This document shows, one piece after another, positions 1 to 45,699 of a stretch of DNA of 45,699 nucleotides. Source of the DNA: Laspinema palackyanum D2a (lineage in GTDB: Bacteria > Cyanobacteriota > Cyanobacteriia > Cyanobacteriales > Laspinemataceae). The DNA lies in assembly GCA_025370845.1 (NCBI GenBank), contig JAMXFF010000039.1, forward strand, positions 1-45,699. Reading direction: 5' to 3'. The notes under the pieces are model-generated. The model searched no databases. It worked only from the letters and a program-made list of their open reading frames with translations, and had not been told where the DNA came from. Position numbers and translations under genes: made by a program. Positions within the stretch are counted from its first letter, which is position 1. Each line of letters begins with the position of its first letter.

Positions 1-126
1 CGAACCCGGAAACGACTGAAGTCGTTACTACGAACCCGGAAACGACTGAAGTCGTTACTACGAACCCGGAAACGACTAAAGTCGTTACTACGAACCCGGA
101 AACGACTGAAGTCGGGACGTTGAACA
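1..126 (-). repeat. Repeat island A: 30-bp tandem array of GTAG-hairpin repeats
   Basis: Four tandem 30-bp units start at 1, 31, 61 and 91. Each holds AACGACTGAAGTCGTT followed by ACTAC, so read on the minus strand it is GTAG plus a 7-bp hairpin. Unit 3 has a G-to-A change in the loop region. Unit 4 changes after GAAGTCG into GGACGTTGAAC, the end-variant also found at the right ends of two other islands. The array is cut by the window edge. Confidence 0.9.
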
Positions 127-167
127 AAAGAGGGAATGGGGGAAATGTGAAGTTTTGTTACAGGGGG

Positions 168-199
168 TAGACTCTCCAGTGTAGGGGAAGGTTTATGCT
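168..199 (+). promoter_or_regulatory. Candidate MerR-family (CueR-like) copper promoter of the ATPase gene
   Basis: A -35-like TAGACT (168-173) and a -10-like TATGCT (194-199) are separated by 20 bp, longer than the usual 17 and typical of MerR-family promoters. The spacer carries an imperfect dyad, ACTCTCC (171-177) and GGAAGGT (186-192), 8 bp apart; 5 of 7 positions pair. The right half matches the known CueR half-site. No merR/cueR gene is in the window, so the regulator is inferred. Confidence 0.5.
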
Positions 200-242
200 G
201 AAGTCAGGAAGCTTGAGCAAACCTTGTATGGAGAGCGTTTGA

Positions 243-2504
243 ATGATGGAAACGGTTAATTTGAGATTAAAAGGGATGGGTTGTGCCTCTTGTGCAACCC
301 AGATTGAACAAGCAATCCAAGGCGTTCCCGGGGTGGAAGAATGCAACGTCAACTTTAGCGCGGAACAAGCGCGGGTGAAGTATAACCCACGAAGGACGGA
401 ACTCGATCGCATCCAAATCGCTGTCTCTGAGGCGGGATATACTGCTGAACCGATGCAAGAATTGGAGATGCGGGACATTGATGCGGAACAAAAATCCCGA
501 CAAGCGGAACAACAAGAATTACAACGCAAGGTAATTTTTGGGGGAATCATTAGCACAATTTTGGTGGTGGGTTCTCTGCCGATGATGACGGGGATTGATT
601 TTCCCTTTATTCCCGCTTGGTTACATCATCCTTGGGTGCAATTTGCCCTAACGACTCCGGTTTTTATCTGGTGTGGTAAGTCCTTTTTTGTGGGAGCATG
701 GAAATCGTTTAAACATCATCATGCGGATATGAATACCCTGGTGGCGTTGGGAACTGGTTCTGCTTATCTCTATTCCTTGCTTGTGTCAATTTTCCCCGGA
801 TTTTTTACAATTCAAGGGGTGATGCCGGAAGTCTATTATGAAACTGCCGCAGTGATTATTACTTTAATTTTGCTGGGGTTGTTGTTTGAAAATAGAGCTA
901 AAGGGCAAACTTCGGAAGCGATTAGAAAGTTAATGGGATTGCAGGCGAAAACAGCGCGGGTGATTCGTGATGGGCAAGAAATTGATATTCCGATTCAAGA
1001 GGTAGGGGTCGGTGATGTGATTTTAGTCCGTCCCGGGGAAAAAATTCCGGTGGATGGGACGGTTTTGGAGGGTTCTTCTTTAATTGATGAGTCAATGGTG
1101 ACGGGAGAATCGGTGCCGGTGAAGAAAGAAACCGGGGATGAAGTGATTGGTGCAACGATGAATAAAAGCGGGAGTTTTAAGTTTAAAGCGTTGCGCGTCG
1201 GGAAGGATACGGTTTTGGCGCAAATTGTCAAGTTGGTGCAAGATGCTCAGGGGAGTAAAGCGCCGATTCAACGGTTAGCCGATCGCGTGACTGGATTTTT
1301 TGTGCCGGTAGTGATTGCCATTGCGATCGCCACCTTTGTGATCTGGTTTGCCATTCTGGGAAATGTCACCCTTGCGATTATTACGACTGTGGGGGTCTTA
1401 ATTATTGCCTGTCCTTGTGCCCTTGGATTAGCAACACCAACCTCAATCATGGTGGGAACCGGAAAAGGTGCAGAAAATGGCATTTTAATCAAAAGTGCTG
1501 ACAGTTTAGAACTTGCCCATAAACTCCAAACCATTGTCTTAGATAAAACCGGCACTTTAACCCAGGGTAAACCCACGGTAACCGATTATGTCACTGTTGG
1601 CGGTACGGCTCATAGTAATGAGATTAAATTGTTACGATTAGCCGCAGCAGTAGAAAGTAATTCTGAGCATCCGTTAGCCGAGGCAGTGGTAGACTATGCC
1701 AAAGCCCAAGGGGTAGAAATGCCGCTTCCAGCCGTTACAAATTTTGAAGCGATTGCTGGGATGGGAGTTCAGGCAATGGTCAGCGATCGCCTCGTGCAAA
1801 TCGGTACTCCGCGATGGATGCAGGAATTAGGCATTGATACCAAAGCCTTACAAACCTATCAAGAAAATTGGGAATCTGAAGCCAAAACTAGCCCTTGGAT
1901 TGCCGTCGATGGACAAATTGAAGGAGTCTTTGGAATAGCAGATGCCTTAAAACCTTCTTCTGTCACAGCCATTCGAGGATTGCGTCGCCTGGGATTAGAG
2001 GTGGTGATGTTAACGGGAGATAACGAAAAAACTGCCCAAGCGATTGCTAAGGAAGTCGGGATTCATCGAGTTTTTGCTGAAGTTCGTCCCGGGCAGAAAT
2101 CGGATAAAATCAAAGAATTACAAGCTGAAGGTAAGATTGTGGCAATGGTGGGTGATGGAATTAATGATGCTCCCGCCTTGGCTCAAGCGGATGTGGGAAT
2201 TGCGATCGGGACAGGAACCGATGTCGCTATTGCTGCCAGTGATATTACCTTAATTTCCGGTGATTTACAAAGTATCGTTACCGCGATTCAACTCAGTAAA
2301 GCCACCATTCAAAATATCCGCCAAAATCTGTTTTTTGCCTTTATTTACAATACCGCCAGTATCCCCATTGCGGCTGGCATTCTGTATCCCTTTACGGGAT
2401 GGTTACTCAATCCTATCCTCGCCGGGGCTGCAATGGCAATGAGTTCGGTTTCCGTCGTCACCAATGCCTTGCGCTTACGCAAGTTTAAAGCCCATCATTC
2501 CTAG
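243..2504 (+). CDS. copA: Cu(I)-translocating P1B-type ATPase (CopA/PacS/CtaA family)
   Basis: This membrane pump moves Cu(I) across the cytoplasmic or thylakoid membrane, driven by ATP. One N-terminal heavy-metal-associated domain carries GMGCASC (Cys14, Cys17). The actuator TGES lies near residue 287, the membrane CPC near 390, the phosphorylated Asp motif DKTGT near 434 and GDGIND near 637. The late helices hold YN and MAMSS, residues that mark the Cu(I) subgroup rather than Zn/Cd pumps. The length of 753 residues is normal. Two ATGs stand in tandem at 243 and 246; GGAG at 230-233 serves either. Sequence alone does not decide whether it supplies copper to plastocyanin in thylakoids or exports it at the plasma membrane. 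The two small membrane-protein genes downstream are on the same strand. Confidence 0.95.
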
Positions 2505-2557
2505 GTGAAACCCTGGGGAATTAAATCTGTAAACTCTCTTGACAACAGGCTGACATT

Positions 2558-2824
2558 ATGTTAAATAAATTCAAAATTGGGATACCTTTACTGGCCGTTG
2601 CAACAGTCTTGGCAACGGGGACAACTGCAAGAGTCCAAGCCATGTCAGAAATGCCCGGACACCTAAGAAACCCATCCCAGGGACTGCAAAAAATTGAACA
2701 ACCCTTACCTGTAAAAGCTGGGGTGATTGTCGGAGGTGTTACTTTAATTGGATTAGAACTCTGGTGGTTTTTATTCAGTAAAAAGAAAACCCAAGCGGCA
2801 ATCGACGAGCCAGAAAATTCCTAA
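2558..2824 (+). CDS. Small secreted/membrane protein downstream of the copper ATPase, function unknown
   Basis: The 88-residue product has a signal-peptide-like N-terminus (Lys3-Lys5, then a hydrophobic stretch ending near AQA at 27-30), a short polar segment rich in Met, Gln and Pro, and one membrane helix near residues 53-72 containing GLELWWFL, followed by a Lys-rich cytoplasmic-type tail (KKK). It lies 53 bp after the ATPase stop and probably shares its transcript. From memory, similar Gly-Leu-Glu-Leu-Trp-Trp helices anchor cyanobacterial cupredoxin-like proteins; that link is unverified. It lacks a Cys or a Cu-binding His cluster, so it may act as a membrane partner rather than a carrier. 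Confidence 0.75.
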   Translation: MLNKFKIGIPLLAVATVLATGTTARVQAMSEMPGHLRNPSQGLQKIEQPLPVKAGVIVGGVTLIGLELWWFLFSKKKTQAAIDEPENS

Positions 2825-2920
2825 TCTTTAATCAATTCAGCGTCCATATCTTCCCTCTGGACACGGCACCCCCGTGTCCTTTCCTATTTCAAACCCGAAC
2901 TCTACCTCAATCCTTTACAA

Positions 2921-3005
2921 TAATAGGCTTCTTGCAAAAAAAGGCTTGATCCCCCCAACCCCCCTTAAGAAGGGGGGCTTTAAAGAATTTTGCAAGAAGT
3001 CTAAT
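2921..3005. repeat. MITE-like inverted repeat with internal poly-C/poly-G hairpin
   Basis: The ends 2921-2938 and 2988-3005 are inverted repeats (TTTTGCAAGAAG core, 16 of 18 positions paired). Inside is a GC hairpin, CCCCCC-TTAAGA-AGGGGGG. There is no coding capacity. The size and structure suit a non-autonomous element, and it directly abuts repeat island B. Confidence 0.65.
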
Positions 3006-3020
3006 ATCTTCTAAGTCATT

Positions 3021-3088
3021 CTCTTAAGTTCGTAGTAACGACTTCAGTCGTTCTCTTAAGTTCGTAGTAACGACTTCAGTCGTTCCCC
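3021..3088 (+). repeat. Repeat island B: two GTAG-hairpin repeats
   Basis: GTAG-T-AACGACTTCAGTCGTT occurs at 3032-3052 and 3064-3084, both on the plus strand, 32 bp apart. It sits just upstream of the PepSY-type gene, with no opposing copies nearby. Confidence 0.9.
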
Positions 3089-3119
3089 ACCCCATTTCCC
3101 TATCCATCCATGAACAATC

Positions 3120-3407
3120 ATGCCTATCAATAAAGTCCGCTTACGGAAACTGCACCGAATCCTGGCCCCGATCGCCATTTTACCCCTCCTCCTGACCGCC
3201 AGTACCGGAATCTTGTATCAAATCGCTGTAGTGAGCGGAAACCGCACCCAATTTATGGGGTTACTCGACCTCCATCAGGGTATATTTGGGTCCCTAAACT
3301 TAGCCCCCGTTTATCCCCTTTTAAACGGATTAGGATTAATCACCCTTGCCGTTACCGGAATGATGATGTGGTTTCAAACTCGTCCAAAACGACAAAACCG
3401 AGCCTAA
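3120..3407 (+). CDS. Small PepSY-type transmembrane protein
   Basis: The 95-residue protein has a basic N-terminus (KVRLRKLHR), a first membrane helix (about 15-33, APIAILPLLLTASTGILY) and a second near 67-85 ending in MMMWFQTRPKRQ. The RKLHR...TG.LY start and the DLHQG segment between the helices are typical of PepSY-associated membrane proteins, which in larger forms are linked to metal reduction. The extracytoplasmic PepSY domain is essentially absent, so this is a minimal two-helix version. It follows the copper ATPase and the small anchored protein on the same strand, but repeats at 2921-3088 separate it from them, so it may be transcribed independently. Confidence 0.75.
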   Translation: MPINKVRLRKLHRILAPIAILPLLLTASTGILYQIAVVSGNRTQFMGLLDLHQGIFGSLNLAPVYPLLNGLGLITLAVTGMMMWFQTRPKRQNRA

Positions 3408-3595
3408 AACCCTCACTATTATCCCTTAAAATGCCCCAAAAAATATTAGGATAGAAGCACAGATAGACATAAACCCAACTTAATCGACCCGAAAAAACCA
3501 TGAACAAATGAGAAAAAACTAAAGATTAAAACAACTCCACTCGAATCCTCCAAAAAACTCCGCTAAAATGAAACGTGCAACTCAGGAGAGCGATT

Positions 3596-3724
3596 GTGCG
3601 TCAATCACCGGAATATCAGGAGCGCAAGGGAAAACAAAGCCACTTATCTTTGCCCGCGCAGCCTTGCTCCCTAGGTCGCGATCGCCCTGGCCAATTCCAA
3701 TCCGGTGCATCTTCAGCCGTTTAG
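3596..3724 (+). CDS. Possible 42-residue small protein, unknown
   Basis: A GTG start at 3596 is preceded by AGGAG (3584-3588) with a 7-nt spacer, and a -10-like TAAAAT lies at 3564-3569. The predicted product begins MRQSPEYQERKGKQ, is basic and hydrophilic, and ends with a TAG at 3722-3724. A HIP1 octamer lies within it. I recognise no family. The good initiation signals in an otherwise gene-free 420-bp gap are the only support. It could instead be a leader for the TolC-like gene 105 bp further on. Confidence 0.35.
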   Translation: MRQSPEYQERKGKQSHLSLPAQPCSLGRDRPGQFQSGASSAV

Positions 3725-3829
3725 TCATGTAAATGAAATTTCATCGCAAAGATCGCGATCTGCTATACCTTAAAAAGTGTTGACCTGAACCTGGAAGTCT
3801 TATTAAATTGCACGCCGAATCAAAAACTT

Positions 3830-5389: not shown

Positions 5390-5423
5390 GTTGGCGCAAT
5401 GGGCAAGCTGGAGCTGAAATCTC

Positions 5424-5445
5424 GGGGCAATTGGTGAATTGCCCC
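5424..5445. repeat. Hairpin of a GGGGCAATT type
   Basis: The arms GGGGCAATT (5424-5432) and AATTGCCCC (5437-5445) form a 9-bp stem with a 4-nt loop 35 bp after the tolC-like stop. There is no U-tract, so it is more likely a dispersed palindrome than an intrinsic terminator, although it could block 3' exonucleases. Confidence 0.5.
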
Positions 5446-7345: not shown

Positions 7346-7834
7346 ATGACTGAGGAAAAAGAGACACAACCCCAACTTCCCCCCACCCAGGCGATCGCCC
7401 GTCTTGGGGAAAAATCCCCCGAGGGATGGTTTGAGTACCCCGTCAGGGCCTATCCCCATCATACCGACTATGCGGGCATCGTTTGGCATGGCACCTACTT
7501 AACCTGGATGGAAGAGGCGCGAGTCGAATCCTTACGGGCGATCGGGGTCAATTTTGCCGATTTAGTCGCCCACGGGTGCGATTTACCCGTGGTTGAGTTA
7601 GCCTTGCGCTACCACAAACCCATGAAACTCGGCACCGAGGCGATCGTCAGAACCCGGATGCTAGAAATGGATGGGGTGCGCCTCAATTGGGAATATCAGA
7701 TTCAGTCCCTCGATGCACAAGAGTTGTACCTCACCGGAGTGGTTACTCTCGTTACCGTGGATATCGAAAAAGGCCGCATCATGCGCCGGTTACCTGAATC
7801 AGTCAAAGATGCCCTAGTTAAACTCTCCCGGTAG
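7346..7834 (+). CDS. Hotdog-fold acyl-CoA thioesterase (4HBT/YbgC-like)
   Basis: The 162-residue protein would hydrolyse an acyl- or aryl-CoA thioester in the cytoplasm. The active-site segment HHTDYAGIVWHGTYL (38-52) contains the Asp (Asp41) and G-I-V-W-H pattern of the 4-hydroxybenzoyl-CoA thioesterase class, and EEAR with the next helix follows as expected. The substrate cannot be read from sequence. It carries about 30 extra N-terminal residues (Gln/Pro-rich) before the fold. There is no Shine-Dalgarno; the inferred NtcA-dependent transcript would have a leader of only about 12 bases. The stop codon runs into the G-rich edge of repeat island C. Confidence 0.88.
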   Translation: MTEEKETQPQLPPTQAIARLGEKSPEGWFEYPVRAYPHHTDYAGIVWHGTYLTWMEEARVESLRAIGVNFADLVAHGCDLPVVELALRYHKPMKLGTEAIVRTRMLEMDGVRLNWEYQIQSLDAQELYLTGVVTLVTVDIEKGRIMRRLPESVKDALVKLSR

Positions 7835-8255
7835 GGGAGATGGGGGAGATAGGGGAGATGGGGGAGATCGTTTGTAGTAACGACTTCAGTCGTTTCCTCG
7901 TGAGGTAAGCTACCGCTTACGTCACTCCCCTTTGGCAGATGAGGAAGATAGGGGAAATAGTTTGTAGTAACGACTTCAGTCGTTACCCCGTGCCGTAAGC
8001 GGTAGCTTACGTCACGCCCCTTTGGCAGATGAAGAAGATAGGGGAAATAGTTTGTAGTAACGACTTCAGTCGTTACCCCGTGCCGTAAGCGGTAGCTTAC
8101 GTCACGCCCCTTTGGATGCTCTGCCTCCAGTCCCCAAGCAGGCACTCCAGCCACCAATTCTGCGTGTCATGGCATCCGCCATGACACGAGAGCAACGACT
8201 GAAGTCGTTACTACGAACATCTCCCCCAACCTCCCCATCTCCCCCATCCTCCCCA
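7831..8255. repeat. Repeat island C: composite inverted element with 90-bp tandem units
   Basis: The left edge is a G-rich tract (runs of 4-5 G at 7834, 7842, 7852 and 7860). Three 90-bp units start at 7871, 7961 and 8051, each with a GTAG hairpin (7874, 7964, 8054) and a second hairpin GTAAGC-N4-GCTTAC. After a 10-bp-stem hairpin at 8164-8187 (GTGTCATGGC...GCCATGACAC) comes one reverse GTAG copy (8194-8214) and a C-rich tract to 8255. Because 90 is divisible by 3, a long minus-strand frame stays open, but it has only repeat sequence. Confidence 0.9.
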
Positions 8256-9445: not shown

Positions 9446-12400
9446 ATGATTACTCCGATTACTCAATTGAATATAGCCGGTGGAGCAAACACCGATCATC
9501 AGGGACAGAGTTTTACCGCCACTGAAAATGGAACCATCAATGAAATTGCTGTTTCTCTGAGCAGTAGTTTTGAGGGCAATTTATTAATTTACCCCAGCAA
9601 TAATGGGAGTGGTGTTGGTTCCCAAAAAGGCATACCCGCCTATGAGCAGACGGGTGTAGTCCTCCCGGGTGGCTTCGGTTGGAAAACCGTTAAATTGAAT
9701 ACCCCCTATACGGTAACCAGTGGACAAAACTATTCCTTTATTTTCGAGGGACTCGGGTCATTCTCTTATGCTGATACCGATGTTTATGCGGGCGGCAGTT
9801 ATATTTTTAACTACGGCAATGTGCAGGCTAATCAAGATTTAGCGTTCTTCATCAATCCGCCGGAAATCGATATCAAGGGGAACAATATTTCGATCGCCAA
9901 CAACGCTTGGTCCCCCTCGACGATGGACGGCACTGATTTTGGCTATACGACGAATATAGCCAGTCCAATCGTTAAAACTTTTACAATTGAGAACTTAGGT
10001 TCCAGTAATTTGAGCTTATCTGGTGGACCTGTGGTAACACTTACCGGGCCAAATTCCAGCAATTTCACTGTGAACACTTTAGGAGTGGATACCATTGGTG
10101 CCGGTCAATCTACCACATTTGAAATTACGTTCACCCCTTGGGTGAGCGGACCTAGCACGGCACAAATTAGTATAGCCAGTAACGACCTAGACGAAGGGAA
10201 TTACGTTTTTTCTGTTCAGGGTAATGGCCCCAGCGGTCCAAGTCCTTTGGATCCTGGGATGATGTTCCCACCACCACCACCACCACCAGAACCGCTTGAA
10301 CCCATTGGCACCCCAGGGGTGGTATTGCCCCCAGATCCGATCTTGACGCCCGATCCGATCTACCCAACTCCACCCGTGGAACCCGTGCCGACTTCCCCAA
10401 CCCCCACAGATCCGATTATCCAGCCGGATCCGATCGCCCCAACCCAACCTGTGGAACCCGTGCCGACTTCCCCAACCCCCACAGATCCGATCGTGACCCC
10501 GGTGCCGATCGCCCCAACCGAACCCGTGGTGACGGACCCAACCCCCACCGAACCCATTATCGGGACCACTCCGATCGCCCCAACTCAACCTGTGGTGACG
10601 CAGCCAACCCCAACTGCACCGATTATCCAACCGGATCCGATCGCCCCAACTCAACCTGTGGTGACGCAGCCAACCCCAACTGCACCGATTATCCAACCGG
10701 ATCTGCTCGCCTCAACTCCCCCCGTGGTGACGCAGCCAACCCCGACTGCACCGATTATCCAGCCGGATCTGCTCGCCCCAACTCCCCCCGTGGTGACGCA
10801 GCCAACCCCCACTGAACCGATTATCCAGCCGGATCTGCTCGCCCCAACTCCCCCCGTGGTGACGCAGCCAACCCCCACTGAACCGATCATCGGACCCACT
10901 CCCACCGTCCCAGTAGCGCCACCCTCCGAACCCGCAGAACAAAATCCCCCCGGAGTCTTTGTCGTCGGCAACGAGGGTCAGATTAATGTAGAGTTCCTGT
11001 TTGATGGCAGTAGCAATATTGCAGAAATGGCTGTGTTCTCTGTAGAAGGGATGGAGAACCTGGCGATCGGATCTACGGAATATATGCAAGAAGCCGCAAG
11101 GCGGGCCTTAAGCCGCTCCTCCGAAGGTCATGTGGTCATCTCTGACCGTTGGCAAGGCGCTCGTTTCAGTGACACCTTCAACGACTTTCGGGACTTTAAC
11201 TGGAATGGAGGCGCTTATCAAGGGCGTCAGAATTTCGCCATGACACCGGGGACCAATTTCGCGATGATGCTTCTCCCCCACGGCACAGTGGAGGATGTAT
11301 TGAGCGACGCTAATCGCCTCCAAGGAGTCCGCGTTCCCCTGTTTTCCACTCAATCGACTCAGGGACAGATGGTGGATCTCACCGGAGAGGGTAACACCTT
11401 TGGTTGGGACGATCAGTCCCTTAATGGCAATAGCTTCCAAACTCCTGACTATAAGGATATCATTTTCAAAATTGAGGGAGCCACAGGGGAAGCGTTGCCT
11501 GTGGATGACTTGATTGTTTCTTCCTCAGATTGGCGCAATCTGCCTCTAGGACAGAACATCGTCAATTATGCCCAAACGGGAGTATCTATGACTCCCGACC
11601 CGGGGTTTTTCTTTCCCCCGTTTATGCCGATGTTTTGGGGGTTCCAAGGGTGGGCAATGGATGGCTACATTGCCAATGCTGAGATCTTCTTTGATGCCAA
11701 TAAAAATGGCCTGCGTGATGAGAACGAAGCCGTTGGCAAAACCGACGAAAATGGCCTGTTTAAATTTGAGGCATCCCTGGAAGCCTTTGATAGCAATGGC
11801 AATGGTAAACTTGACGCGAGCGAAGGTCACATTGTCGTGGTGGGGGGGATTGATACCGCCAATGGCTTACCCTTAGAAACACCGCTCAAAGCAACGCCAG
11901 ATTCTCTGATGGTCAGTCTGTTAACCACCATCACGGCGGATTTGATTGATGAGGGATTATCTCCGTTTGAAGCGAATGACAAGGTAAAACAAGCGTTATC
12001 CTTGCCGGATAATGTGGATTTGAGTACCTTTGACCCGATCGCGGCGACGGAGCAAAACATCGCGGGGGGTGCAGCGATTAACCTCTCAATGGTGCAGGTG
12101 CAAAATTTAGTGACTCAGACTGCGGCTTTAATCGATGGCGCTTCTAGCTTGTCAAGAGCCGATATTGCGGGGATGGTTGTCAAAAGCCTCGCCAATAGTT
12201 TGCAGTCTGTTACCCGCTTTGATGTCACATCTAGCGCCCAACTCCAAACCGTGATAGAAGCTGCGGCGCAGAAGGTTCAAGAGAGTGACCCCTCTGTAAA
12301 TTTGGATGAGTTACGAACAATGGCGTCATCGGCAGCGCAAGTGATGGCGGCGGCTAATCAGCAGATCGCGGAAGCGGTAGCGAATGGAGGGACAGATATT

Positions 12401-18114: not shown

Positions 18115-18316
18115 CCTTCCAGTCCCCTCCCCTTACCAAGGGGAGGGCTAGGGTGGGGTTCCGGCATCCAAGCGTGAGAACCCTCCAGTCCCCTCCCCTT
18201 ACCAAGGGGAGGGCTAGGGTGGGGTCCCGGCATCCCAAAGTGAGAACCCTCCAGTCCCCTCCCCTTACCAAGGGGAGGGCTAGGGTGGGGTTCCGAAACC
18301 CAAAAGTGAGAACCCT
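18115..18316. repeat. Three 66-bp tandem repeats with strong GC hairpins inside the RND operon
   Basis: Units start at 18121, 18187 and 18253, and each contains CCCTCCCCTT-ACC-AAGGGGAGGG, a 10-bp GC-rich stem. They fill almost the whole 243-bp gap between the adaptor stop and the pump start. Open frames through it encode only repeat peptides, because 66 is divisible by 3. Confidence 0.9.
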
Positions 18317-18318
18317 CT

Positions 18319-20809: not shown

Positions 20810-21442
20810 ATGGAAGAAGAATTCTCAAAAGTAGAAGGGATGAGGCGTCAACCGCAGCAGATGCGGGCGATTAAGCGCGTGAATCAGATCCTAGATGCGG
20901 CAGAAGACTTGTTTGCCGAAGTCGGATATGAAGGGGCCACCACCAATGCGATCGCCGCCCGCGCTGGGACCTCCATTGGATCCCTGTATCGTTTTTTTCC
21001 CGATAAAGAATCCATTCTCAAAGCACTCGCCACCCGCTATTTGGAGCAAATGCATGAAATGTTTTTTCAGCTACATTCCCCAGAAATGGCAACCTTACCC
21101 CTAGAGGTTTATATTGACCGAGTAATGGACGCATTTGATGAATTAATCACAGCACATCCTGGGTATCGAGCCGTTTTTTTCAAATCCCGCGCCGCTTGCC
21201 CAGAAGTCCAAGAAATGGATTCGGATTTATGCGCTCAATTTGCGGGTAAATTAGCCGAATTTTATCGATTAAAAGCGCCCCATCTCGATCCATCCACTGG
21301 CGAACTGATCGCCTTAGTTGTCGTAGAAGCAGTCCGCAATTTGCGGAGACTCTCTCTGACCCGAGATGACCCATTTCAGCACCGAGTCACTCAGGAAATT
21401 AAAAAACTATTATTGGCCTATTTGCAGCCTTATTTAAGTTAG
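20810..21442 (+). CDS. TetR/AcrR-family transcriptional regulator
   Basis: The 210-residue repressor-type protein has an N-terminal helix-turn-helix (AAEDLFAEVGYEGATTNAIA and AGTSIGSLYRFFPDK, about 30-70) and a variable C-terminal ligand and dimer domain. The ATG at 20810, after a purine-rich GGGGGAAAA, puts a Lys/Arg-rich helix directly before the HTH; an in-frame start at 20750 would overlap the putative operator. It is divergent from the RND adaptor-pump operon, so control of that pump is the simple guess, but the repeat operator is found only on its own promoter side. Confidence 0.9.
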   Translation: MEEEFSKVEGMRRQPQQMRAIKRVNQILDAAEDLFAEVGYEGATTNAIAARAGTSIGSLYRFFPDKESILKALATRYLEQMHEMFFQLHSPEMATLPLEVYIDRVMDAFDELITAHPGYRAVFFKSRAACPEVQEMDSDLCAQFAGKLAEFYRLKAPHLDPSTGELIALVVVEAVRNLRRLSLTRDDPFQHRVTQEIKKLLLAYLQPYLS

Positions 21443-21712
21443 GAGATGGGGAGGATAGGGGAGATGGGGTTCATGTTTGTAGTAACGACTTCAGTCGTTG
21501 CTTTCGTGTCATGGCGATCGCCATGACACTTACCCTTCTAGGATTAAGCACCTGTATGGGGACTGGGGCGATCGCCTCCATTGGGGCGTTACTTGGCATC
21601 CGCCAAGTAACGCGGTAACGACTGAAGTCGGGACGTTGAACATGAACCCCATCCTCGCCATCCTCGCCATCCTCGCCATCCTCGCCATCCTCCCCATCTC
21701 CCCCATCCTCAT
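21441..21712. repeat. Repeat island D: composite inverted element with nested hairpins
   Basis: From the outside in: a G-rich left edge ending GATGGGGTTCATGTT (about 21463-21477) mirrors AACATGAACCCCATC on the right (about 21640-21654). A GTAG hairpin lies at 21479-21499, a perfect 24-bp palindrome with a HIP1 core at 21506-21529 (GTGTCATGGCGA and its mirror), a 12-bp stem with ATCC loop at 21586-21613, and the end-variant repeat at 21617-21641. The right edge has tandem CATCCTCGC units and C-rich DNA. No gene is seen in 21443-21810. Confidence 0.85.
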
Positions 21713-21810
21713 CATCTCCTTTTCCTTAAGAAAAATTTTCAAGTTAGGGGATCCCAAAAGAGGGCGATCGCGATTAAAATCTTGGTAAATCTACCCGAGG
21801 AGTTAACGCA

Positions 21811-26176: not shown

Positions 26177-26380
26177 GTTTGTAGTAACGACTTCAGTCGT
26201 TCTCTTTCTTAGTTTGTAGTAACGACTTCAGTCGTTTCCGGGTTCGGAGTATTGAGATAAACCAGCGGTAATTTAAAAGATCCTTTAGTAGTTAGTATCT
26301 GCTGTCACTACTGGGAGTAACGACTGAAGTCGGGACGTTGAACTAAGACAAGATAACGACTGAAGTCGGGACGTTGAACG
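26177..26380. repeat. Repeat island E: two GTAG hairpins facing two end-variants
   Basis: GTAG copies lie at 26181-26201 and 26216-26236 on the plus strand. Two end-variant copies (AACGACTGAAGTCG then GGACGTTGAAC) lie at 26319-26343 and 26355-26379, in the opposite orientation. The 80 bp between are unremarkable. Confidence 0.88.
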
Positions 26381-31548: not shown

Positions 31549-34479
31549 TCAGATACTGGGAGCATCGGACCAACTTTCAAAGAAATTATCCAGGGTGGGA
31601 TTAGCGAGGTCATCATCGGGGGAGATGGGGACCTCTGGCTGATCTGGCTCAGGTTCGGGATCTACGGGTGCCGTGGCCTCATCCTCATCATCCATGAAGT
31701 CAGCGAAAAAATCTTCGACTGTTTCATGGTTGATATCTTCCTCCGCTGTGACTTTGACCACCGGAGGCGGATTGGTTGCCATCAGTTCGGCAAAAATATC
31801 ATCTAAGGTGGGCAAAACACTATTTGATCGCCCCGTTGCCTCGGGTTTACTTTCACCGTTAAGACTAGAAGACCCAGGGGTGGCTCCAGATACGGTTTTC
31901 TGTGAATTGGACTGAGTTTTAGAAGGTTGAGCGGCTTTTCCTTGCGGTTTTCCCGTCGGTTTACGCCCAGTTTCGGGCGGGGAGGGGGGTTCCTTCTCCT
32001 GGGTAAAGTCTGCTGCCAGTCCGATCGCCTTCTGGTCCGGGTCCCCTGCCTCTAGGAGAAACTCTCCCCCATCGGTATCTAAATCTAAGGAAGCATCTTC
32101 ACTTTCTTCCCAAGGCAGAGTGCCATCCAAGTCCTCTAAGCTGACTGACTCGGATAACGGGGGTTCAGCGGCGAGGTCCTCCAGCCATTGTTCATCGCTT
32201 AAGTCGGTTGACTGCCAGTCCGAGGGGTCCGGAGTTGCGTTTTTGGGTTCTGCTTCCTCTAATTTAGAGAGGTCCTCATCTAAGCGTTTGATGCCCGTAT
32301 TACTCAGCCAGAGATTGTCGAGGTCCTCCTCTAGGTCCTCATCGGGGAGTAAATCTTCTTGGGGGGAAGCGGGAATATAGGCGCTTTCTTCCCAGTCTCC
32401 CTCTAAATCGAGGTCGGAGGCGATCGCCCCCTCCTCAAATTCGGGCAGCCAATCCTCCATCAGGGAAGCGGCTGTATCCTCGACCATTTCCGGGTCTGGG
32501 TCCGGTAACGCTGCCGGTTCTGGGGACACTCCAGTTGCCTCGGGAACTGTCTCAAAATCAGCAAACAAATCGTCTACGGGTTCCTCAGTTGGGGTTGCTG
32601 GGGGTTCCGGTTCCCTGGGGGGTTTGGCCTTCTGGGGAGGGGGTGGGGATTTAGTTTCTGAAGCCGATCGCGCTTTGGTGATTTCTGCTGGGATGGCAGG
32701 GTCCGACTCGGTGAGTAGGGACTCTAGGCGATCGCCAAACAGAAACTCATCCATATAGTCTTCCGAATACTCGCCCCCCATTCCTGGAGCATCCGTGCGA
32801 CTCTCCAATTCCGCAAATAAGTCATCCTCGCTATATGGGGAAGTCTCCTGAGTCTGGGCACTGTTCGGTTCTTCACCGATGGCGAATAAATCTGCATCCC
32901 CGCTATATGGGGAAGTCTCCTGAGTCTGGACACTGTTCGGTTCTTCACCGAAGGCGAATAAATCTGCATCCCCCGACTCCGGGATGAACTCTGATGGGGG
33001 AGGGAGATTTTCTTCGAGTTCCAAACCCTCGGACAACTCCCAATTTTCGGGCAAGTCATCATCCCCTGTCACCCACCCCTCCAGACCTAATTCCGGCAGG
33101 TCCTCGAAGTCGAGATCCGAGGGAGAAATGGGGCTATTTTCTGGGGCGATCGCCTCGGAAAACTCCTCTTCTGCCTCACCAGTCTCGGCCCATTGTGCAG
33201 CGAGTTCAAAGTTGTCTTGAGACATTTCCAACCGAGTCTTAGGGACTGTTTGAGGGGATCTCTCCCTTGCCTGGTCCAGATCCGCCGATGCCTGGGTGGT
33301 TTCATCCTCTGCTGCCTCCATTGGCGGGGTTAATTCTGCTCCCGCAAAGGGGAAGGTAAGCAGTTCAGGGTTCTCTTCCAGGGAGAGTTCAGACGCTGAT
33401 AGCGCGGCAGAAACTTGGGGCGTTTTAGGTGGCTTTTGGGAGGGAGATTCGGCCTGGGGTTCGGGTTGGACAGAGGGAACCGGAGCAGTTTTGGGCGATG
33501 GCGGTGGAGTGGGAGGGGATTCGAGTTTAGAGGTTTCTGGGTCTGATTTCGGCGGGGAATCCTGCTCTTTTGCGATCGCCCCTTGAGTTGCGGCGAGGAG
33601 TCGCAGGGAGGATTGTAAATAGGAGGAGGTTTCTTGACCTAAAAGTTGGGCCAGGTGATTGACCAAGGCGCTAAACATCAGTTCCCCTTGCTGTCCGAGG
33701 CGATGCATCTTGTCTAAGCCTTGAACTAGGGAGTCATTGTAACTGTTGACATTGCGTTCGAGGGCTTCAAAGACAACGCGCAGGGTAGAGTCGAGGGACA
33801 TCAAGAGGCGATCGGATTCCCCCTGTAACCGCTGCAACTGTTCTAATCGGGCTTCTTGAGATAACAGTCCAGAATTCTCTACAGTCAAGGCGTTGAGATA
33901 TTCGCGGAACTGAGAGTCGAGAGCGTCTTGTTCGAGGCGATCGCCAGTGCCCTGCGTTAAGAGTTGGGTTTCGATTTGTCCGATCGCCTGAGAAACCTGT
34001 TGGGAGAGTCGGTCTTGCAGGGGTCCGAGTAAGGCTTGGAGAAAGTCGGCGATCGCCTGTTGTTGATGAGCCTGTTGTCCCGCCAGGGTCTGGTAATGCC
34101 GTTGTCTTTGCTCCAACTCCCGGACTTCTGCCATCAGGGAATATCGCTCTTGTCGTAACGTGGCGATTTCTTCCTGTAAGGGTTGCATCAGGTTAGTCCG
34201 TAACCCGCTCAAATCTTGCATCAGGGCTTGCAAAACCGCTTGAGCTTCAGCCGCTTCACTCACGGCTTGTGGGGCGATCGCATAAGGCGGCATAGCACTC
34301 ACCGCTACTCCCAGGCTGCCCTGGGAGGTCAGTTGGGAATCCAGATACAGACGAACTCGCTCCAAAACCCGGCGAGTCTCTCCGGAACTCCACCACGCGA
34401 GGCGGGAGTTCATTTTTCGCAGAATTCCATCAATGTCTGCAATCAGTGCTTGTAGTTGATCCCGATTAGAACTCACCAT
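31549..34479 (-). CDS. 976-residue coiled-coil and acidic disordered protein, unknown
   Basis: The N-terminal 300 residues are helical and Gln/Leu-rich, with coiled-coil heptads (about 85-180 and 195-280; for example LRQERYSLMAEVRELEQRQ). The rest is strongly acidic, rich in Pro, Ser, Glu and Asp, and predicted disordered. It is punctuated by short acidic-aromatic motifs (DLFAFGEEP, DLFAIGEEP, DDLFAELE, MDEFLFGD, DDLFADFE, LDDIFAEL, EDFFADFM, LDNFFESW) spread over residues 506-970. It has no signal peptide or membrane helix. It is the first gene of the two-gene unit with the Hsp70-like ATPase. The start has AGAGG four to five bases upstream. Confidence 0.75.
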   Translation of the reverse strand: MVSSNRDQLQALIADIDGILRKMNSRLAWWSSGETRRVLERVRLYLDSQLTSQGSLGVAVSAMPPYAIAPQAVSEAAEAQAVLQALMQDLSGLRTNLMQPLQEEIATLRQERYSLMAEVRELEQRQRHYQTLAGQQAHQQQAIADFLQALLGPLQDRLSQQVSQAIGQIETQLLTQGTGDRLEQDALDSQFREYLNALTVENSGLLSQEARLEQLQRLQGESDRLLMSLDSTLRVVFEALERNVNSYNDSLVQGLDKMHRLGQQGELMFSALVNHLAQLLGQETSSYLQSSLRLLAATQGAIAKEQDSPPKSDPETSKLESPPTPPPSPKTAPVPSVQPEPQAESPSQKPPKTPQVSAALSASELSLEENPELLTFPFAGAELTPPMEAAEDETTQASADLDQARERSPQTVPKTRLEMSQDNFELAAQWAETGEAEEEFSEAIAPENSPISPSDLDFEDLPELGLEGWVTGDDDLPENWELSEGLELEENLPPPSEFIPESGDADLFAFGEEPNSVQTQETSPYSGDADLFAIGEEPNSAQTQETSPYSEDDLFAELESRTDAPGMGGEYSEDYMDEFLFGDRLESLLTESDPAIPAEITKARSASETKSPPPPQKAKPPREPEPPATPTEEPVDDLFADFETVPEATGVSPEPAALPDPDPEMVEDTAASLMEDWLPEFEEGAIASDLDLEGDWEESAYIPASPQEDLLPDEDLEEDLDNLWLSNTGIKRLDEDLSKLEEAEPKNATPDPSDWQSTDLSDEQWLEDLAAEPPLSESVSLEDLDGTLPWEESEDASLDLDTDGGEFLLEAGDPDQKAIGLAADFTQEKEPPSPPETGRKPTGKPQGKAAQPSKTQSNSQKTVSGATPGSSSLNGESKPEATGRSNSVLPTLDDIFAELMATNPPPVVKVTAEEDINHETVEDFFADFMDDEDEATAPVDPEPEPDQPEVPISPDDDLANPTLDNFFESWSDAPSI
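32831..32974 (-). repeat. In-frame 72-bp tandem duplication
   Basis: Two 72-bp copies (32831-32902 and 32903-32974) differ at few positions and code 24-residue units with DADLFA(F/I)GEEPNS. The in-frame unit length and near identity suggest a recent expansion in the disordered region. Confidence 0.85.
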
Positions 34480-41489: not shown

Positions 41490-41509
41490 GGGTTTGAATG
41501 GTCCCAGTT

Positions 41510-42145
41510 TTACGGCACTTGGCTATCTAATACCTGGGAATCCAACCACAAATTGCAGGCGACTGGTTCCGAGGTACAGGTATAACTCCCTAACAGTCTT
41601 TGCTGACGAGTAAACACCCGGATGTTGTACCCGTAATCCTTCGCTACTTGCCCGAAATGATTCAAAAACTCATACCGTTGCAGGTAATCCAACAAACTCC
41701 AGCTTTGACGGTTGACAATCAGATCCACCGTGCCTGTATCCTCTCCATTCCGGGGGTAGGCTAACCAGTTCTCGACCAGTCTATACCCAAACTGTTCGTT
41801 AACCCACCATAAAGAAGGAACCGTCACCCCAGTTTGAGAAATCGTGTAATTCGTGGTGATATTAAATTCGGCGGGATCGATTTCCGGTGGGATGGTTAGA
41901 AACTGTAATGGGGGTTTTTCCGGAGGCATCTGCTGGAGTTCTAAAGCCGGTTGTTCGCGATCGTCCGGTGGTACCAGGTCCTCTACGGCTTCTAATGCTG
42001 GCGCGGAAGTTTGAGTCAATCCGACTCTCGCCCAAAGTGGAATTAACCCGAGTAGGAGCAAATAGAGAACAATTCCAGGCAATCCGAGTGGACTACTCCT
42101 CTGCAATTGCTCAGTTAGATAAATTTTATCGCGTTCTGTGGGCAT
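41510..42145 (-). CDS. Membrane-anchored hypothetical protein
   Basis: The 211-residue product starts with MPTERDKIYLTEQLQ, a single helix (about 21-42) and a mature domain that includes a Pro/Glu-rich linker and a folded part (VPSLWWVNEQFGYRLVENWLAYPRNGED ... YTCTSEPVACNLWL with two Cys). I chose the ATG at 42145; an in-frame start at 42238 would run across the inverted repeat. I do not recognise the family. It is convergent with the solute-binding protein gene, 20 bp apart. Confidence 0.7.
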   Translation of the reverse strand: MPTERDKIYLTEQLQRSSPLGLPGIVLYLLLLGLIPLWARVGLTQTSAPALEAVEDLVPPDDREQPALELQQMPPEKPPLQFLTIPPEIDPAEFNITTNYTISQTGVTVPSLWWVNEQFGYRLVENWLAYPRNGEDTGTVDLIVNRQSWSLLDYLQRYEFLNHFGQVAKDYGYNIRVFTRQQRLLGSYTCTSEPVACNLWLDSQVLDSQVP

Positions 42146-42195
42146 AATTTTATTATTTAAAATCGCTGCTAGTCTGTCGAAATAGTAACGGTTAA

Positions 42196-42259
42196 AAACC
42201 GGGTTTCTCCCCCAAAATTTTGGCTTTTTTTCAGACAATTTGGGGGAGAAACCCGGTTT
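42196..42259. repeat. Perfect 21-bp inverted repeat, hairpin-forming
   Basis: The arms 42196-42216 and 42239-42259 pair perfectly over 21 bp with a 22-nt loop. The ends contain AAACCGGGTTT. It lies between two minus-strand genes and looks like a small MITE or a strong transcript-stabilising hairpin. T-runs in the loop only. Confidence 0.85.
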
Positions 42260-42290
42260 CTGGTCTATCGGTTGAACAGTCTTAATCAGA

Positions 42291-43454
42291 CTACCCCCAT
42301 AACCGCCGTCCGGATTTACCCTTGAAGCGATCGTGCGTATCTTCTAAAAGTGCTGGGATATCCAGTTGTTCTGGACATCGAGGTAAACAATCTCCGCAGT
42401 CGGTACAGCGATTTCCTTTCATGCCGGGAAACCAATGTCCGGCATTTTCAAACATGGAATATCGGTATTGACCATAGTCCGTCATGGAGTAAGCAACGGC
42501 GAGATTTCTTAATCGTAAGATTTCGGGAATATTAATGGTTTCCGGACAAGGTAAACAGGCATAACATTGACTGCATTGATCTGAACCTAAAACCTCGGTG
42601 GCATGGGTTTCTAAGCGGTTGATGGTTTCTTTTGGGATGGGAATAGCTGTACTGTCGTTTTGGTCTATCGGATGGTTCAGAAGGGACAGGCGATCGAGCA
42701 GGGTGAGTTCTTCTGGGTTGGCGGCCCCAAAACTTAAGGTGGTAATGCGCGGGTCACTTAACAAAAACTGATAGTTAAATTCTAGGGGAGTTAAGGGATG
42801 ACAGAGTTGGGAGAGTTGTTCCGGTGGGGTATGAAGTTTTCCCCCTTTGTCTGCCGGGGAAATAATAAAAATGCCTAAATCTTTTTGATGCGCTAAGGCG
42901 ACTGCGGCAGCATTGCGCTGGAAAAAATAGTAGTAATGTAGATTAATAAATTCAAATAAATCGGTGTTAATTGTCTCTAAAATTAAATCTAAGCTGCCAT
43001 GAGTAGAAAATCCGAGATGTCGAACTCGACCATCGCTCAAAGCTTGGCTAATCCCCTGCATTCCCCCCTGAGAGTCTAACACCCACTCTAAATGTTGGCG
43101 GGTATTGATGCCATGAAGGGTCAACCCGTCCAGATAATTCACTTTGAGCCGGTCTAATGATTCATCAATGCACCGTTCCACTTCTTCCGCATTCCCTGAA
43201 GGGGGGAGTTTAGTGGTGATGTACAATTGTTCTCGCTGAACAGGAGAGTTTCCCTGCAACAATTCCATCAGGGCAATTCCGAGATATTCTTCACTATTGC
43301 CATATCCTCGTGCGGTTTCGAGATGATTGATTCCCCGTTTCACCGCTGCTTGCACTGTGGCGATCGCATTTTCCGGGGACGCCAAATATCGCATTGTTCC
43401 CAGGGAAAATATAGACAGAGATAGATTAGTTTTTCCAAATCGGCGGTAATACAC
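42291..43454 (-). CDS. Aldo/keto reductase with C-terminal ferredoxin domain (two [4Fe-4S])
   Basis: The 387-residue protein joins an aldo/keto reductase barrel (1-280) to a bacterial ferredoxin-like end. Tetrad positions are Glu46 (usually Asp), Tyr51, Lys82 and His114. Two clusters of CxxCxxCxxxCP, near 297-311 and 356-368, indicate two [4Fe-4S] centres, as in other Fe-S aldo/keto reductases. It starts with a GTG at 43454. The substrate and the electron partner are unknown. Confidence 0.88.
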   Translation of the reverse strand: MYYRRFGKTNLSLSIFSLGTMRYLASPENAIATVQAAVKRGINHLETARGYGNSEEYLGIALMELLQGNSPVQREQLYITTKLPPSGNAEEVERCIDESLDRLKVNYLDGLTLHGINTRQHLEWVLDSQGGMQGISQALSDGRVRHLGFSTHGSLDLILETINTDLFEFINLHYYYFFQRNAAAVALAHQKDLGIFIISPADKGGKLHTPPEQLSQLCHPLTPLEFNYQFLLSDPRITTLSFGAANPEELTLLDRLSLLNHPIDQNDSTAIPIPKETINRLETHATEVLGSDQCSQCYACLPCPETINIPEILRLRNLAVAYSMTDYGQYRYSMFENAGHWFPGMKGNRCTDCGDCLPRCPEQLDIPALLEDTHDRFKGKSGRRLWG

Positions 43455-43587
43455 AATTTACGTTTTTTCCTCAGATTTCGTTCCGGGGAGGAAGGCCGGG
43501 AATTGAGAAATTAGAATGCACAGATCCGCAGGTTTCTCCTGATTCTGACTTCTTGATTCCCCTTGCTTCCCCGTCCCCTGAAACGCT

Positions 43588-44106
43588 CTACGATTCTTGA
43601 ACTTCTCCACTACCGGAACCAAATTCCTTACGCTGAATGAAATCTTCCGGGCTAATATTAGAAACAAAATCACGGAACGCTTGCCGTTCTGCTTCATCCG
43701 CTTCTCGATCCACGGGAATCGAGGCATCCGCCACCACTTCTTCCATCACCCAGATCGGGCTGTTAGTCCGTAGTGCTAAGGCGATCGCATCGGAAGGCCG
43801 AGCATCAATTTCCTTGAGCACTTCTCCGTGACGAAGCTTCAGGACTGCATAAAACGTATTGTCTTGTAAAGCATGAATAATAATCCGGTCTAAACTAAGC
43901 TCATATTCTTCTAGGATATTGACCATGAGATCATGGGTCAAAGGTCTAGGCGGTTTTTGGCTTTCGAGGGCGCTAATAATTGACCTAGCTTGGTCTTGAC
44001 CTATATAGATCGGCAGAGCTCGTCGATCTCCAGCGTCTCTGAGCAGCACTATGGGACTCCTTGTTGCTGCATCCAATGCAATTCCAGCGACTTTCATCTC
44101 AATCAT
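43588..44106 (-). CDS. Bifunctional nuclease (DUF151) family protein
   Basis: The 172-residue protein begins MIEMKVAGIALDAATRSPIVLLRD and has the DUF151 core (LPIYIGQDQARSI, HDLMVNILEEY, DARPSDAIALALRTNSPIWV), followed by a UVR-like acidic tail (VSNISPEDF). Plant and Thermotoga members act on RNA and DNA; activity here is unproven. The ATG at 44106 is preferred over a GTG at 44154, with GAGG upstream. It is divergent from ribE. Confidence 0.88.
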   Translation of the reverse strand: MIEMKVAGIALDAATRSPIVLLRDAGDRRALPIYIGQDQARSIISALESQKPPRPLTHDLMVNILEEYELSLDRIIIHALQDNTFYAVLKLRHGEVLKEIDARPSDAIALALRTNSPIWVMEEVVADASIPVDREADEAERQAFRDFVSNISPEDFIQRKEFGSGSGEVQES

Positions 44107-44360
44107 CGGCTCGGCCTCTTTAGAACACGCTATGGGGGATAATGAACTCGACACCTCTGAAGCAAGTCTCGTTCTCCTGTTTTAGGCAGGTCCATGCTTC
44201 ACTATAACGTTAAGGCACAACGGTTTGGTTCAACCCGAAGTGCCGCCGCATGGTCCCTACCTCTGCTCGGCCACTGTGCTTTTTTTGGCTTGATAAATTC
44301 CAGTATGCCTTCTTATTTGGCCGCTTAGATCCCTCTTTGGCGAGGAATTTAATAAAAAAT

Positions 44361-44390
44361 TTGACAGGGGACTGGCAAAAATGGTAACGA
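44361..44390 (+). promoter_or_regulatory. Possible -35/-10 region upstream of riboflavin synthase
   Basis: A consensus TTGACA (44361-44366) is followed by a weak -10 (TAACGA, 44385-44390, 18-bp spacing), 37 bases before the ATG. No FMN riboswitch is visible in the 320-bp gap. Confidence 0.35.
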
Positions 44391-44426
44391 ACTGTCGAGA
44401 ATTTATGCAATTTCAAGGAAAACGCC

Positions 44427-45146
44427 ATGTTTACCGGATTAATTCAGGGATTAGGCACGATTGAGGCGACTGGGACAGAAAATCTCAAAATTTCCTGTCA
44501 TTCCGGTGCTGAGTTGGTGCTCACGGATTTAGCATTAGGGGATAGCGTCGCGGTTGATGGGGTTTGTTTAACGGTGGTCGAGATTTTGCCGCGAGGTTTT
44601 GTGGCGATCGCCTCCCCGGAAACCCTCGATCGCACCACCCTCGGGAAAGTCTCCCATACCTACGTCAATCTCGAAACCTCTCTGCGCGTTGGCAGCAAAT
44701 TAGGCGGTCATTTTGTCACGGGTCATGTGGATGCGATCGGCTGTCTGCAACAGTCCATCCAAACCGCCAGTTCCTGGGAAATGACCTTCACGGCACCCCC
44801 CGCTTCCCAACTGCTATGGCAGCGCCAAATTGCCCCCTATATCGTTCCCAAAGGCAGCATTGCAGTCAATGGCATCAGTCTCACCATTGCCGATTGTGAT
44901 GAAAAAGGCACTTACTTTACCGCTGCGGTCATTCCCCATAGCTATGGCGAAACCAATCTGCGCTATCTCCAACTCGGTCACTGGGTTAACCTAGAAGCCG
45001 ATATTTTAGGCAAATATGTGGGGAAATTCATCCGGTCCCGTTTCGCTTCTCCCATTGAGGAAAACCCCTCTGATGAGGCCATTCCCTCCCTTTCCGGTTT
45101 TGAGGCGATTTCCCCCGCTTTTCTGGCAGAACATGGTTATCTTTAA
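44427..45146 (+). CDS. ribE: Riboflavin synthase alpha chain
   Basis: The enzyme dismutates 6,7-dimethyl-8-ribityllumazine to riboflavin. Two lumazine-binding repeats: MFTGLIQGLGTIEA ... GHFVTGHVDAIG, and IAPYIVPKGSIAVNGISLTIAD ... NLEADILGKYVGK. DGVCLTVVEI and VNGISLTIAD are typical of the alpha chain. It is 239 residues, about 20 longer than the norm because of a C-terminal tail. Upstream AAGGA (44415-44419) precedes ATG. Confidence 0.94.
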   Translation: MFTGLIQGLGTIEATGTENLKISCHSGAELVLTDLALGDSVAVDGVCLTVVEILPRGFVAIASPETLDRTTLGKVSHTYVNLETSLRVGSKLGGHFVTGHVDAIGCLQQSIQTASSWEMTFTAPPASQLLWQRQIAPYIVPKGSIAVNGISLTIADCDEKGTYFTAAVIPHSYGETNLRYLQLGHWVNLEADILGKYVGKFIRSRFASPIEENPSDEAIPSLSGFEAISPAFLAEHGYL

Positions 45147-45225
45147 TGGTTAAGTTCACCATCACCCCGCCGCATTTTTTTTCCTTCAGGGGTTGCGTTT
45201 TTTTCGGGGGTTTGATATATTATGT

Positions 45226-45325
45226 TATAATAGAAATATAATCACTTTTTTTATTACAGTCAAGCTCCCCATTATCACATAATACCGCATCGGGTGCAAC
45301 AACACAAGCCCCGATGCCTATTTTT
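45226..45325 (+). ncRNA. Candidate small RNA or terminator unit downstream of ribE
   Basis: An extended -10 (TGTTATAAT, -10 at 45226-45231) lies about 50 bases before a terminator hairpin, GCATCGGG (45287-45294) with CCCGATGC (45310-45317), 8 bp, followed by CTATTTTTT. A transcript of about 85 nt is possible. It may only be ribE's terminator plus an AT-rich leader. I cannot name it. Confidence 0.4.
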
Positions 45326-45357
45326 TAAGCCGCCGCTGTAAAGAATTCTTAAGCCAA

Positions 45358-45699
45358 ACCCAGTCGTTCTCTTAGTTTGTAGTAACGACTTCAGTCGTTC
45401 TCTTAGTTCGTAGTAACGACTTCAGTCGTTCTCTTAGTTCGTAGTAACGACTTCAGTCGTTCTCTTAGTTTGTAGTAACGACTTCAGTCGTTTCCGGAAG
45501 TTCGAGGGAAAAGCAAACCAGTTCCTTGGGGCGATCGCCTTTAAATGGATAACGACTGAAGTCGTTACTACGAACATCGGAAAGAGAACGACTGAAGTCG
45601 TTACTACGAACATCGGAAAGATAACGACTGAAGTCGTTACTACGAACATCGGAAAGATAACGACTGAAGTCGTTACTACGAACATCGGAAAGATAACGA
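45358..45699. repeat. Repeat island F: four forward and four-plus reverse GTAG-hairpin repeats
   Basis: Forward copies at 45379, 45410, 45441 and 45472 (period 31) face reverse copies at 45551, 45587, 45623 and 45659 (period 36), plus a partial one at 45695, cut by the window edge. About 58 bp lie between the two arrays. Repeat-only peptides fill the minus-strand frame. Confidence 0.93.

Follow-up and report, generated by a model that had tools for sequence, protein, structure and literature searches.

The window analysed here, a stretch of 45,699 nt from Laspinema palackyanum D2a (contig JAMXFF010000039.1; genome G000 below), raises the question of what the short GTAG-tagged hairpins between its genes are, and what has multiplied them. 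A sequence-only reading of the window had described some 20 complete copies of GTAG-T-AACGACTTCAGTCGTT, grouped in six intergenic islands and never inside a called gene, and had inferred a link to REP-associated tyrosine transposases (RAYTs; REP, repetitive extragenic palindrome). We propose, at a probability of roughly 0.92 and on the strength of sequence comparisons, that the hairpins are a GTAG-tagged REP family that is mobilised by, and depends for its upkeep on, a single-copy RAYT of the subclass-2.8 type encoded elsewhere in the genome. As such, the repeat and its RAYT belong to a type already described, namely GTAG REPs accompanied by their REPtron. What is unusual is the dominance of head-to-tail arrays with a CT just 3' of the internal hairpins, and the presence of a second foot on the same hairpin.

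A GTAG REP family in the window and the genome

The 16-mer AACGACTTCAGTCGTT has 44 strand-wise matches in the window at up to two mismatches, against 0.01 expected from shuffled sequences; most copies score on both strands because the 16-mer is a near-palindrome. When each copy is counted once through the core CGACTTCAGTCG (at most one mismatch), 24 hairpins are found in six clusters, 20 of them with the foot GTAGTAA and four with AACGTCC. The earlier count of 20 GTAG copies in six islands was exact, while the four AACGTC-footed copies had been missed. None of the 24 lies within a kept open reading frame (ORF; at least 110 aa, chosen greedily, longest first), in agreement with the earlier claim.

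In the genome scan that had been proposed as a check, across the 7.41 Mb of the assembly (116 contigs), the 21-mer consensus has 575 + 541 matches at up to three mismatches (552 + 531 copies at up to two), against 0 + 2 for a reversed-pattern control. In a sampled part of 1.197 Mb (the window, contigs C44, C11 and C94 whole, and pieces of C63, C19, C22 and C116) we found 234 copies: 205 GTAG-footed, 19 AACGTC-footed and ten with neither foot. Kept ORFs cover 72-81% of each sampled contig, and 219 of the 234 copies lie outside them. Of the other 15, nine fall within ORFs of 113-144 aa, which are possibly spurious calls, three have neither foot, and three, in ORFs of 298, 322 and 736 aa, may be real intragenic copies or may reflect wrong ORF calls.

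The unit is 25 nt long, GTTY-GTAG-T-AACGACT-TC-AGTCGTT, with a stem of 5-6 bp, (A)CGACT/AGTCG(T). The foot GTAGTAA is exact in 198 of the 205 GTAG-footed copies, and the GTT before the tag is present, position by position, in 199, 202 and 203 of them. An unpaired terminal GTAG on a palindrome of 20-40 bp, high copy number, extragenic location and association with a RAYT are traits of the GTAG REP superfamily, and the repeat has all of them.

A RAYT gene between arrays of the repeat

The Y1_Tnp profile has three matches in G000. One is an intact 198-aa gene (C44:210716-211309), which scores 96.9 bits against the NCBIfam equivalog NF047646 REP_Tyr_transpos (cut-off 80) and 26.2 against Y1_Tnp (cut-off 23), and whose best solved relative is the TnpArep structure 4er8 (E 9.5e-9). 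A protein search finds this RAYT once in the genome. Besides its profile matches, it has the HUH and Tyr motifs of RAYT (TnpAREP) enzymes. Its motifs (NHYH, IWYK and YIHYNP), its length and its proline-rich N-terminus fit, when compared by eye, the traits listed for TnpAY1 subclass 2.8 in the relevant passages of PMC6006769. The gene is flanked on both sides by inverted arrays of the window repeat, which read C>G>G>G>G> on the left and G<G<G<G<G< on the right (C, AACGTC; G, GTAG); such a gene, with hairpins on both flanks, is what the sequence-only reading had suggested searching for. This RAYT probably moves the hairpins. The other two Y1_Tnp matches are pieces of an IS200-type TnpA beside a 446-aa ORF (locus L032, G000:C94:152940-156107) that, judged from its translation, looks like TnpB.

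Scanning GTDB genomes brought up 343 RAYT relatives, and the 80 best among them were used. At these loci, hairpins preceded by any tetramer were counted near and far from the gene, and the 256 tetramers were ranked by the near/far ratio. GTAG ranked first (328 near versus 42 far; 3.57 versus 0.149 per kb), followed by TAGT, which is GTAG shifted by one base (352 near hits versus 47 far), and a GTAG-hairpin lies near the gene at 69 of the 80 loci. Together with the arrays around the gene in G000, this ranking supports the RAYT link that had been inferred from the window. RAYT relatives with GTAG-hairpins also occur in records named Chloroflexi, Terriglobia and Poribacteria.

A stricter extraction recovered a REP at 62 of the 80 loci (55 distinct REPs); it demanded six of seven stem pairs, and therefore pairing itself was conditioned. 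Among features that were not selected, the linker T is found in 54 of the 55, the closing pair T and A in 55 each, the first T of the loop in 52, and the GTTY before the tag in 45, 42, 43 and 52 by position; the hairpin top CTTYAG is common to the 55. Both sides of the stem are changed in 107 cells, compared with 35.8 after shuffling and 7-29 in slid controls, and the stem changes are compensatory.

Copy number and islands across the genus

Seven other genomes of the genus (G001-G007) were searched. A close RAYT (at least 93% identity) occurs in G000, G003 and G006, which hold 813, 1077 and 534 exact 25-mers, compared with 98, 25, 95 and 31 in G001, G002, G004 and G007, where no close RAYT was found. 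In the same order, the 21-mer at up to two mismatches occurs 1083, 1359 and 809 times versus 231, 79, 194 and 102 times, and the exact 25-mers amount to 75, 79 and 66% of these matches versus 42, 32, 49 and 30%. Apart from G005, discussed below, the genomes without a close RAYT found hold fewer and more decayed copies. G001 and G007 have an empty RAYT site, at which the flanking genes adjoin with REP remnants between them; in G002 and G004 the two flanks lie apart.

In a search among relatives that covered 99 genomes, the own one included, the 21-mer (up to two mismatches) occurs in 23, eight of them the genus, and the 15 others carry 1-54 copies each. Within the genus, the orthologous places of four islands hold from 0 to 8 copies in the seven genomes (contig ends cut island 2 in G005 and island 3 in G001), and the copy number of island 2 varies among relatives. 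Presence and copy number thus differ between species.

These comparisons bear on whether the hairpins might instead be host elements, such as transcription ends, mRNA stabilisers or nucleoid-protein sites, that are kept by selection and lie near a RAYT only incidentally. By raw counts, clusters are somewhat commoner between convergent genes (15 of 56, versus 95 of 561 intergenic regions longer than 100 bp) and rarer between divergent genes (8 of 56 versus 128 of 561), and PMC8049555 models benefits that REPINs bring to the host. However, orthologous islands range widely in copy number between species, genomes without a close RAYT found have fewer and less exact copies, RAYT genes in different phyla have GTAG-hairpins clustered around them, and no Rfam family reached its threshold in the window. 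We therefore consider a purely host-selected origin very improbable, although the hairpins could have a secondary host role.

Arrays and the CT dinucleotide

Neighbouring copies within clusters form 166 pairs, of which 123 are head-to-tail (103 of these spaced 30-37 bp), 27 head-to-head and 16 tail-to-tail. The sequence-only reading had compared the grouping to bacterial interspersed mosaic elements (BIMEs), and this stands in part: some clusters alternate in orientation, and inverted pairs with a recurring spacer (for example, window 8050-8218) are like REPINs and BIMEs, but most neighbours are head-to-tail rather than alternating.

Of 103 internal copies, 92 have a CT among the 6 nt that follow the hairpin on its 3' side, compared with 24 of 44 array-last and 34 of 77 single copies, and with a background of 27% in 79,068 intergenic 6-mers. 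Array by array, CT follows the first copy in 39 of 44 cases and the last in 24 of 44 (discordant 17 versus 2, sign test 7e-4), and a CT is present in 18 of the 23 distinct first tails. In Escherichia coli, the sites at which TnpAREP cleaves are CTs lying 5' or 3' of the REP (PMC8266576), and so the arrays resemble cut-and-join products. By analogy with the biochemistry of TnpAREP from E. coli, Stenotrophomonas and Marinomonas, the RAYT would bind the single-stranded hairpin, with the GTAG foot serving as its guide, and would cleave at CT dinucleotides on the 5' and 3' sides of the hairpin; if the ends cut at these CTs were rejoined, head-to-tail arrays would result in which internal hairpins mostly have a CT after them. 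It is this cut-and-join origin that we infer rather than observe.

The tandem arrays could also have grown purely by replication slippage or unequal crossing-over, with the RAYT having done no more than seed the repeats. Of 59 comparisons between adjacent spacers of one array, 26 gave identity, versus 1.7% of random pairs, as local duplication predicts, and unit lengths in arrays vary (29-41 bp). Such a process, however, leaves unexplained both the excess of CT after internal over last or single hairpins and the low, decayed copy number where no close RAYT was found, and we regard it as rather unlikely.

Several observations weigh against mobilisation and upkeep by the RAYT. There is no RAYT gene within the window itself. 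The RAYT match in G006 spans residues 1-179 of 198 only, and G005 has 870 exact 25-mers (1134 21-mers at up to two mismatches, exact share 77%) with no close RAYT found, although a RAYT gene may be hidden there, as both flanks of the RAYT site end at contig ends. Ancestry may confound the contrast in copy number: G000, G006, G003 and G005 group in a rough tree from 1.2 kb, with a support of only 0.21, so that the contrast may represent one event. At the 80 RAYT loci, 11 have no GTAG-hairpin within 600 bp (13 under another rule). Moreover, the stem does not simply follow RAYT ancestry. Three loci in Chloroflexi-type records named Anaerolineales or Brevefilum (L118, L120 and L124) carry the identical 21-mer GTAGTAACGACTTCAGTCGTT though their RAYTs are just 44-47% identical to that of G000, and L123 has a one-letter variant, while cyanobacterial RAYTs at 60-70% identity go with other stems. 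Finally, the array and CT counts used 224 of the 234 copies, those with neither foot being left out, and the CT enrichment is in part a product of common ancestry within arrays.

Two feet on one hairpin

In the 19 AACGTC-footed copies of the sample (~8%), AACGTC[CA] replaces GTAGTAA on the same hairpin. The pattern AACGTCMCGACTTCAGTCGTT has 82 copies in G000 at up to one mismatch, the AACGTC-footed form is present in 11 to 97 copies in each of the seven genus relatives, and the AACGTC foot also occurs on other stems, of the CCCC/GGGG and CGCC/GGCG types.

Counterparts in the relatives could be placed, by eye on alignments and positions, for 12 of the 19; the remaining seven were unreadable or ambiguous (two in cluster 1, one each in clusters 6 and 9, two inner copies of cluster 5, and window 101-125). 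Ten of the 12 are GTAG-footed at the same place in at least one relative: one in island 4, two in island 5, one each in clusters 0, 2 and 8, and two each in clusters 4 and 7. The second copy of island 4 and the minus-strand array of island 5 are GTAG-footed in G003, G005 and G006, whereas at cluster 8 G005 too has AACGTC. In cluster 2, G000 and G006 have the same bases next to the copy and differ inside it in foot and loop alone. The other two stay AACGTC in relatives with a like-oriented copy. One is the first copy of cluster 5 (AACGTC in G003, G005 and G006; G001 has one inverted GTAG copy nearby) and the other stands outermost on the left side of the RAYT locus, where it has AACGTC in G000 and G003, is slightly changed in G006 and has decayed look-alikes in G002, G004 and G007.

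The two feet alternate inside arrays, with near-identical spacers where inspected. Among the 19 copies nine are single, four first and five last in their array, and no fixed array place was seen except the outer left one at the RAYT locus. Because AACGTC copies also form tandem runs, up to six in a row, they are unlikely to be an inactive form.

A different explanation of the minority copies is that they belong to a separate REP type, of the CGTC superfamily, which shares the stem by chance. The sections of PMC3733652 on these repeats treat GTAG and CGTC as separate superfamilies, the latter without a dedicated transposase, and leave their mutual relation open. The minority copies do have the CGTC trait of an unpaired CGTC (within AACGTC[CA]) at the palindrome foot, and the two feet are discrete in the sample. 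They nevertheless depart from that superfamily in having another stem, in having been found in one genus only, in sharing hairpin and loci with GTAG copies, and in adjoining a RAYT, an AACGTC copy being found at the RAYT locus in G000, G003 and G006. That the same-locus copy is GTAG in relatives, that both feet alternate within arrays and that the foot is found on other stems too all argue against chance sharing, as does the pattern GTTCAACGTC-NNNN-CTTYAG, which, among 386 phylum genomes drawn with no other genus member included, was found only in the own one. We thus rejected as our main reading a separate CGTC family with its own stem, because more than one stem carries this foot and the foot is exchanged at fixed loci, and we hold a chance sharing of the stem to be improbable. 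CGTC as a general RAYT-linked tag was likewise not supported at the 80 loci (10 near versus 9 far, 0.109 versus 0.032 per kb, at 5 loci).

Exchange of GTAGTA and AACGTC on one hairpin at fixed loci would have its simplest explanation in REP copies that converted one another over short tracts or exchanged strands; conversion between copies or strand exchange by the RAYT would each suffice. A search by eye for a template of AACGTC in the hairpin's own arms gave no match. We put forward, tentatively and as something that may well prove wrong, that one RAYT accepts GTAGTA and AACGTC as two interchangeable guide feet and would itself swap them in place as it cuts and joins one copy with another. 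Four other genera with variants of the repeat had no match to AACGTCMCGACTTCAGTCGTT, and the foot swap was, within the genomes searched, found only in this genus. If one RAYT does use two guides, guide switching would be a normal part of REP life, and a GTAG family could give rise to a CGTC-tagged REP with no need of a dedicated transposase.

Relation to known REP systems

Cyanobacterial GTAG REPs, REPtrons and subclass-2.8 RAYTs are already in print. The families GTAG-12, GTAG-15 and GTAG-16, as presented in PMC3733652 (Di Nocera et al. 2013), resemble the one studied here in their GTAG foot, short palindrome, high copy number and the presence of several families per genome, and differ from it in the excess of head-to-tail pairs and the second foot, in a comparison that leaves stems aside. 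The GTAG/hairpin layout had been likened to that of enterobacterial RAYTs; the layout is as described, but it is not only enterobacterial, given the cyanobacterial cases in PMC3733652 and PMC6006769.

The account of subclass 2.8 in PMC6006769 tables eight members, with Cyanobacteria only in its sample and relatives elsewhere in nr. Its REPtrons share with ours the motifs NHYH, W[YH] and YIHYNP, a length of ~199 aa, the proline-rich N-terminus, GT[AG]G REP flanks and a cyanobacterial host; unlike the subclass as described there, the relatives with GTAG-hairpins found here reach Chloroflexi, Terriglobia and Poribacteria records. Dual feet were not met in that account of the subclass. The TnpAREP/REP pairs of E. 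coli, S. maltophilia and Marinomonas covered in PMC8266576, in which the GTAG foot is the guide and CT marks the cleavage sites, also have a GTAG foot, CT on both sides and an HUH enzyme, features that we read here from sequence alone. In contrast to those pairs (enzyme groups 2 and 3), the present hairpin is topped by CTTYAG and has a single unpaired T following the GTAG. A literature search that took in few subscription journals found nothing on this family or on mixed feet, which is weak evidence that neither is in print.

How REPs spread is stated to be unsolved in PMC8266576. In this genus a single syntenic place holds the RAYT in some genomes and is empty in others, many arrays are orthologous, and feet trade places; with these contrasts, both the spread of REPs and the relation between GTAG and CGTC become testable with comparative genomics and one purified enzyme. 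In addition, subclass-2.8 RAYTs gain a large substrate family outside proteobacteria.

Islands and other repeats of the window

Table 1. REP islands of the window, with positions and strands of the copies
Feature	Position	Strand	Content
Island 1	11..125	-	GTAG-footed REPs 11-35, 41-65, 71-95; AACGTC-footed REP 101-125
Island 2	3028..3084	+	GTAG-footed REPs 3028-3052, 3060-3084
Island 3	7870..8218	both	+ REPs 7870-7894, 7960-7984, 8050-8074; - REP 8194-8218
Island 4	21475..21641	both	Inverted pair: GTAG + 21475-21499, AACGTC - 21617-21641
Island 5	26177..26379	both	GTAG + REPs 26177-26201, 26212-26236; AACGTC - REPs 26319-26343, 26355-26379
Island 6, whole	45375..45683		+ array, then - array
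Island 6, + part	45375-45399, 45406-45430, 45437-45461, 45468-45492	+	Four GTAG REPs, 31-bp period
Island 6, - part	45551-45575, 45587-45611, 45623-45647, 45659-45683	-	Four GTAG REPs, 36-bp period

The REPs of island 1 are head-to-tail with a 30-bp period, and the three plus-strand REPs of island 3 recur on a 90-bp unit. The last of these and the minus-strand REP make an inverted-pair, REPIN-like composite of a type that recurs in the genus. Composites of this sort, ~150-200 bp long with further palindromes in the spacer, occupy window 8050-8255 and 21442-21719, and the genus has stretches resembling them, at about 71-92% identity, in many places.

In C11, C44, C116 and other contigs of G000 (for example, at C44:345770) there is a second stem subfamily, which has the same foot; it is an inverted dimer in which GTTYGTAGTAACCCCTTCAGGGGTT is followed by TCTTTAAAGAT and an inverted GACTCC/GGAGTC hairpin. 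Immediately to the left of island 2, a stretch of ~85 bp (window 2918-3008), which holds no hairpin copy by the patterns used, has many other matches in G003, G005 and G007, mostly at 90-95% identity. A 9-bp minisatellite of the GGGGAGATG / CATCCTCCC type lies at 7827-7868, 21442-21469 and 21641-21728, adjoining islands 3 and 4; at the place of island 4, minisatellite-like tracts replace the REPs in G002 and G007 and adjoin one REP in G004. Elsewhere in the window, three 66-bp repeats with CCCTCCCCTTACCAAGGGGAGGG cores lie between AcrB-type and HlyD-type genes (18115-18317), 66-bp repeats are found within a 1452-aa ORF with a DUF4114 match (10328-10916), and a 72-bp duplication lies within a 976-aa ORF (32823-32966).

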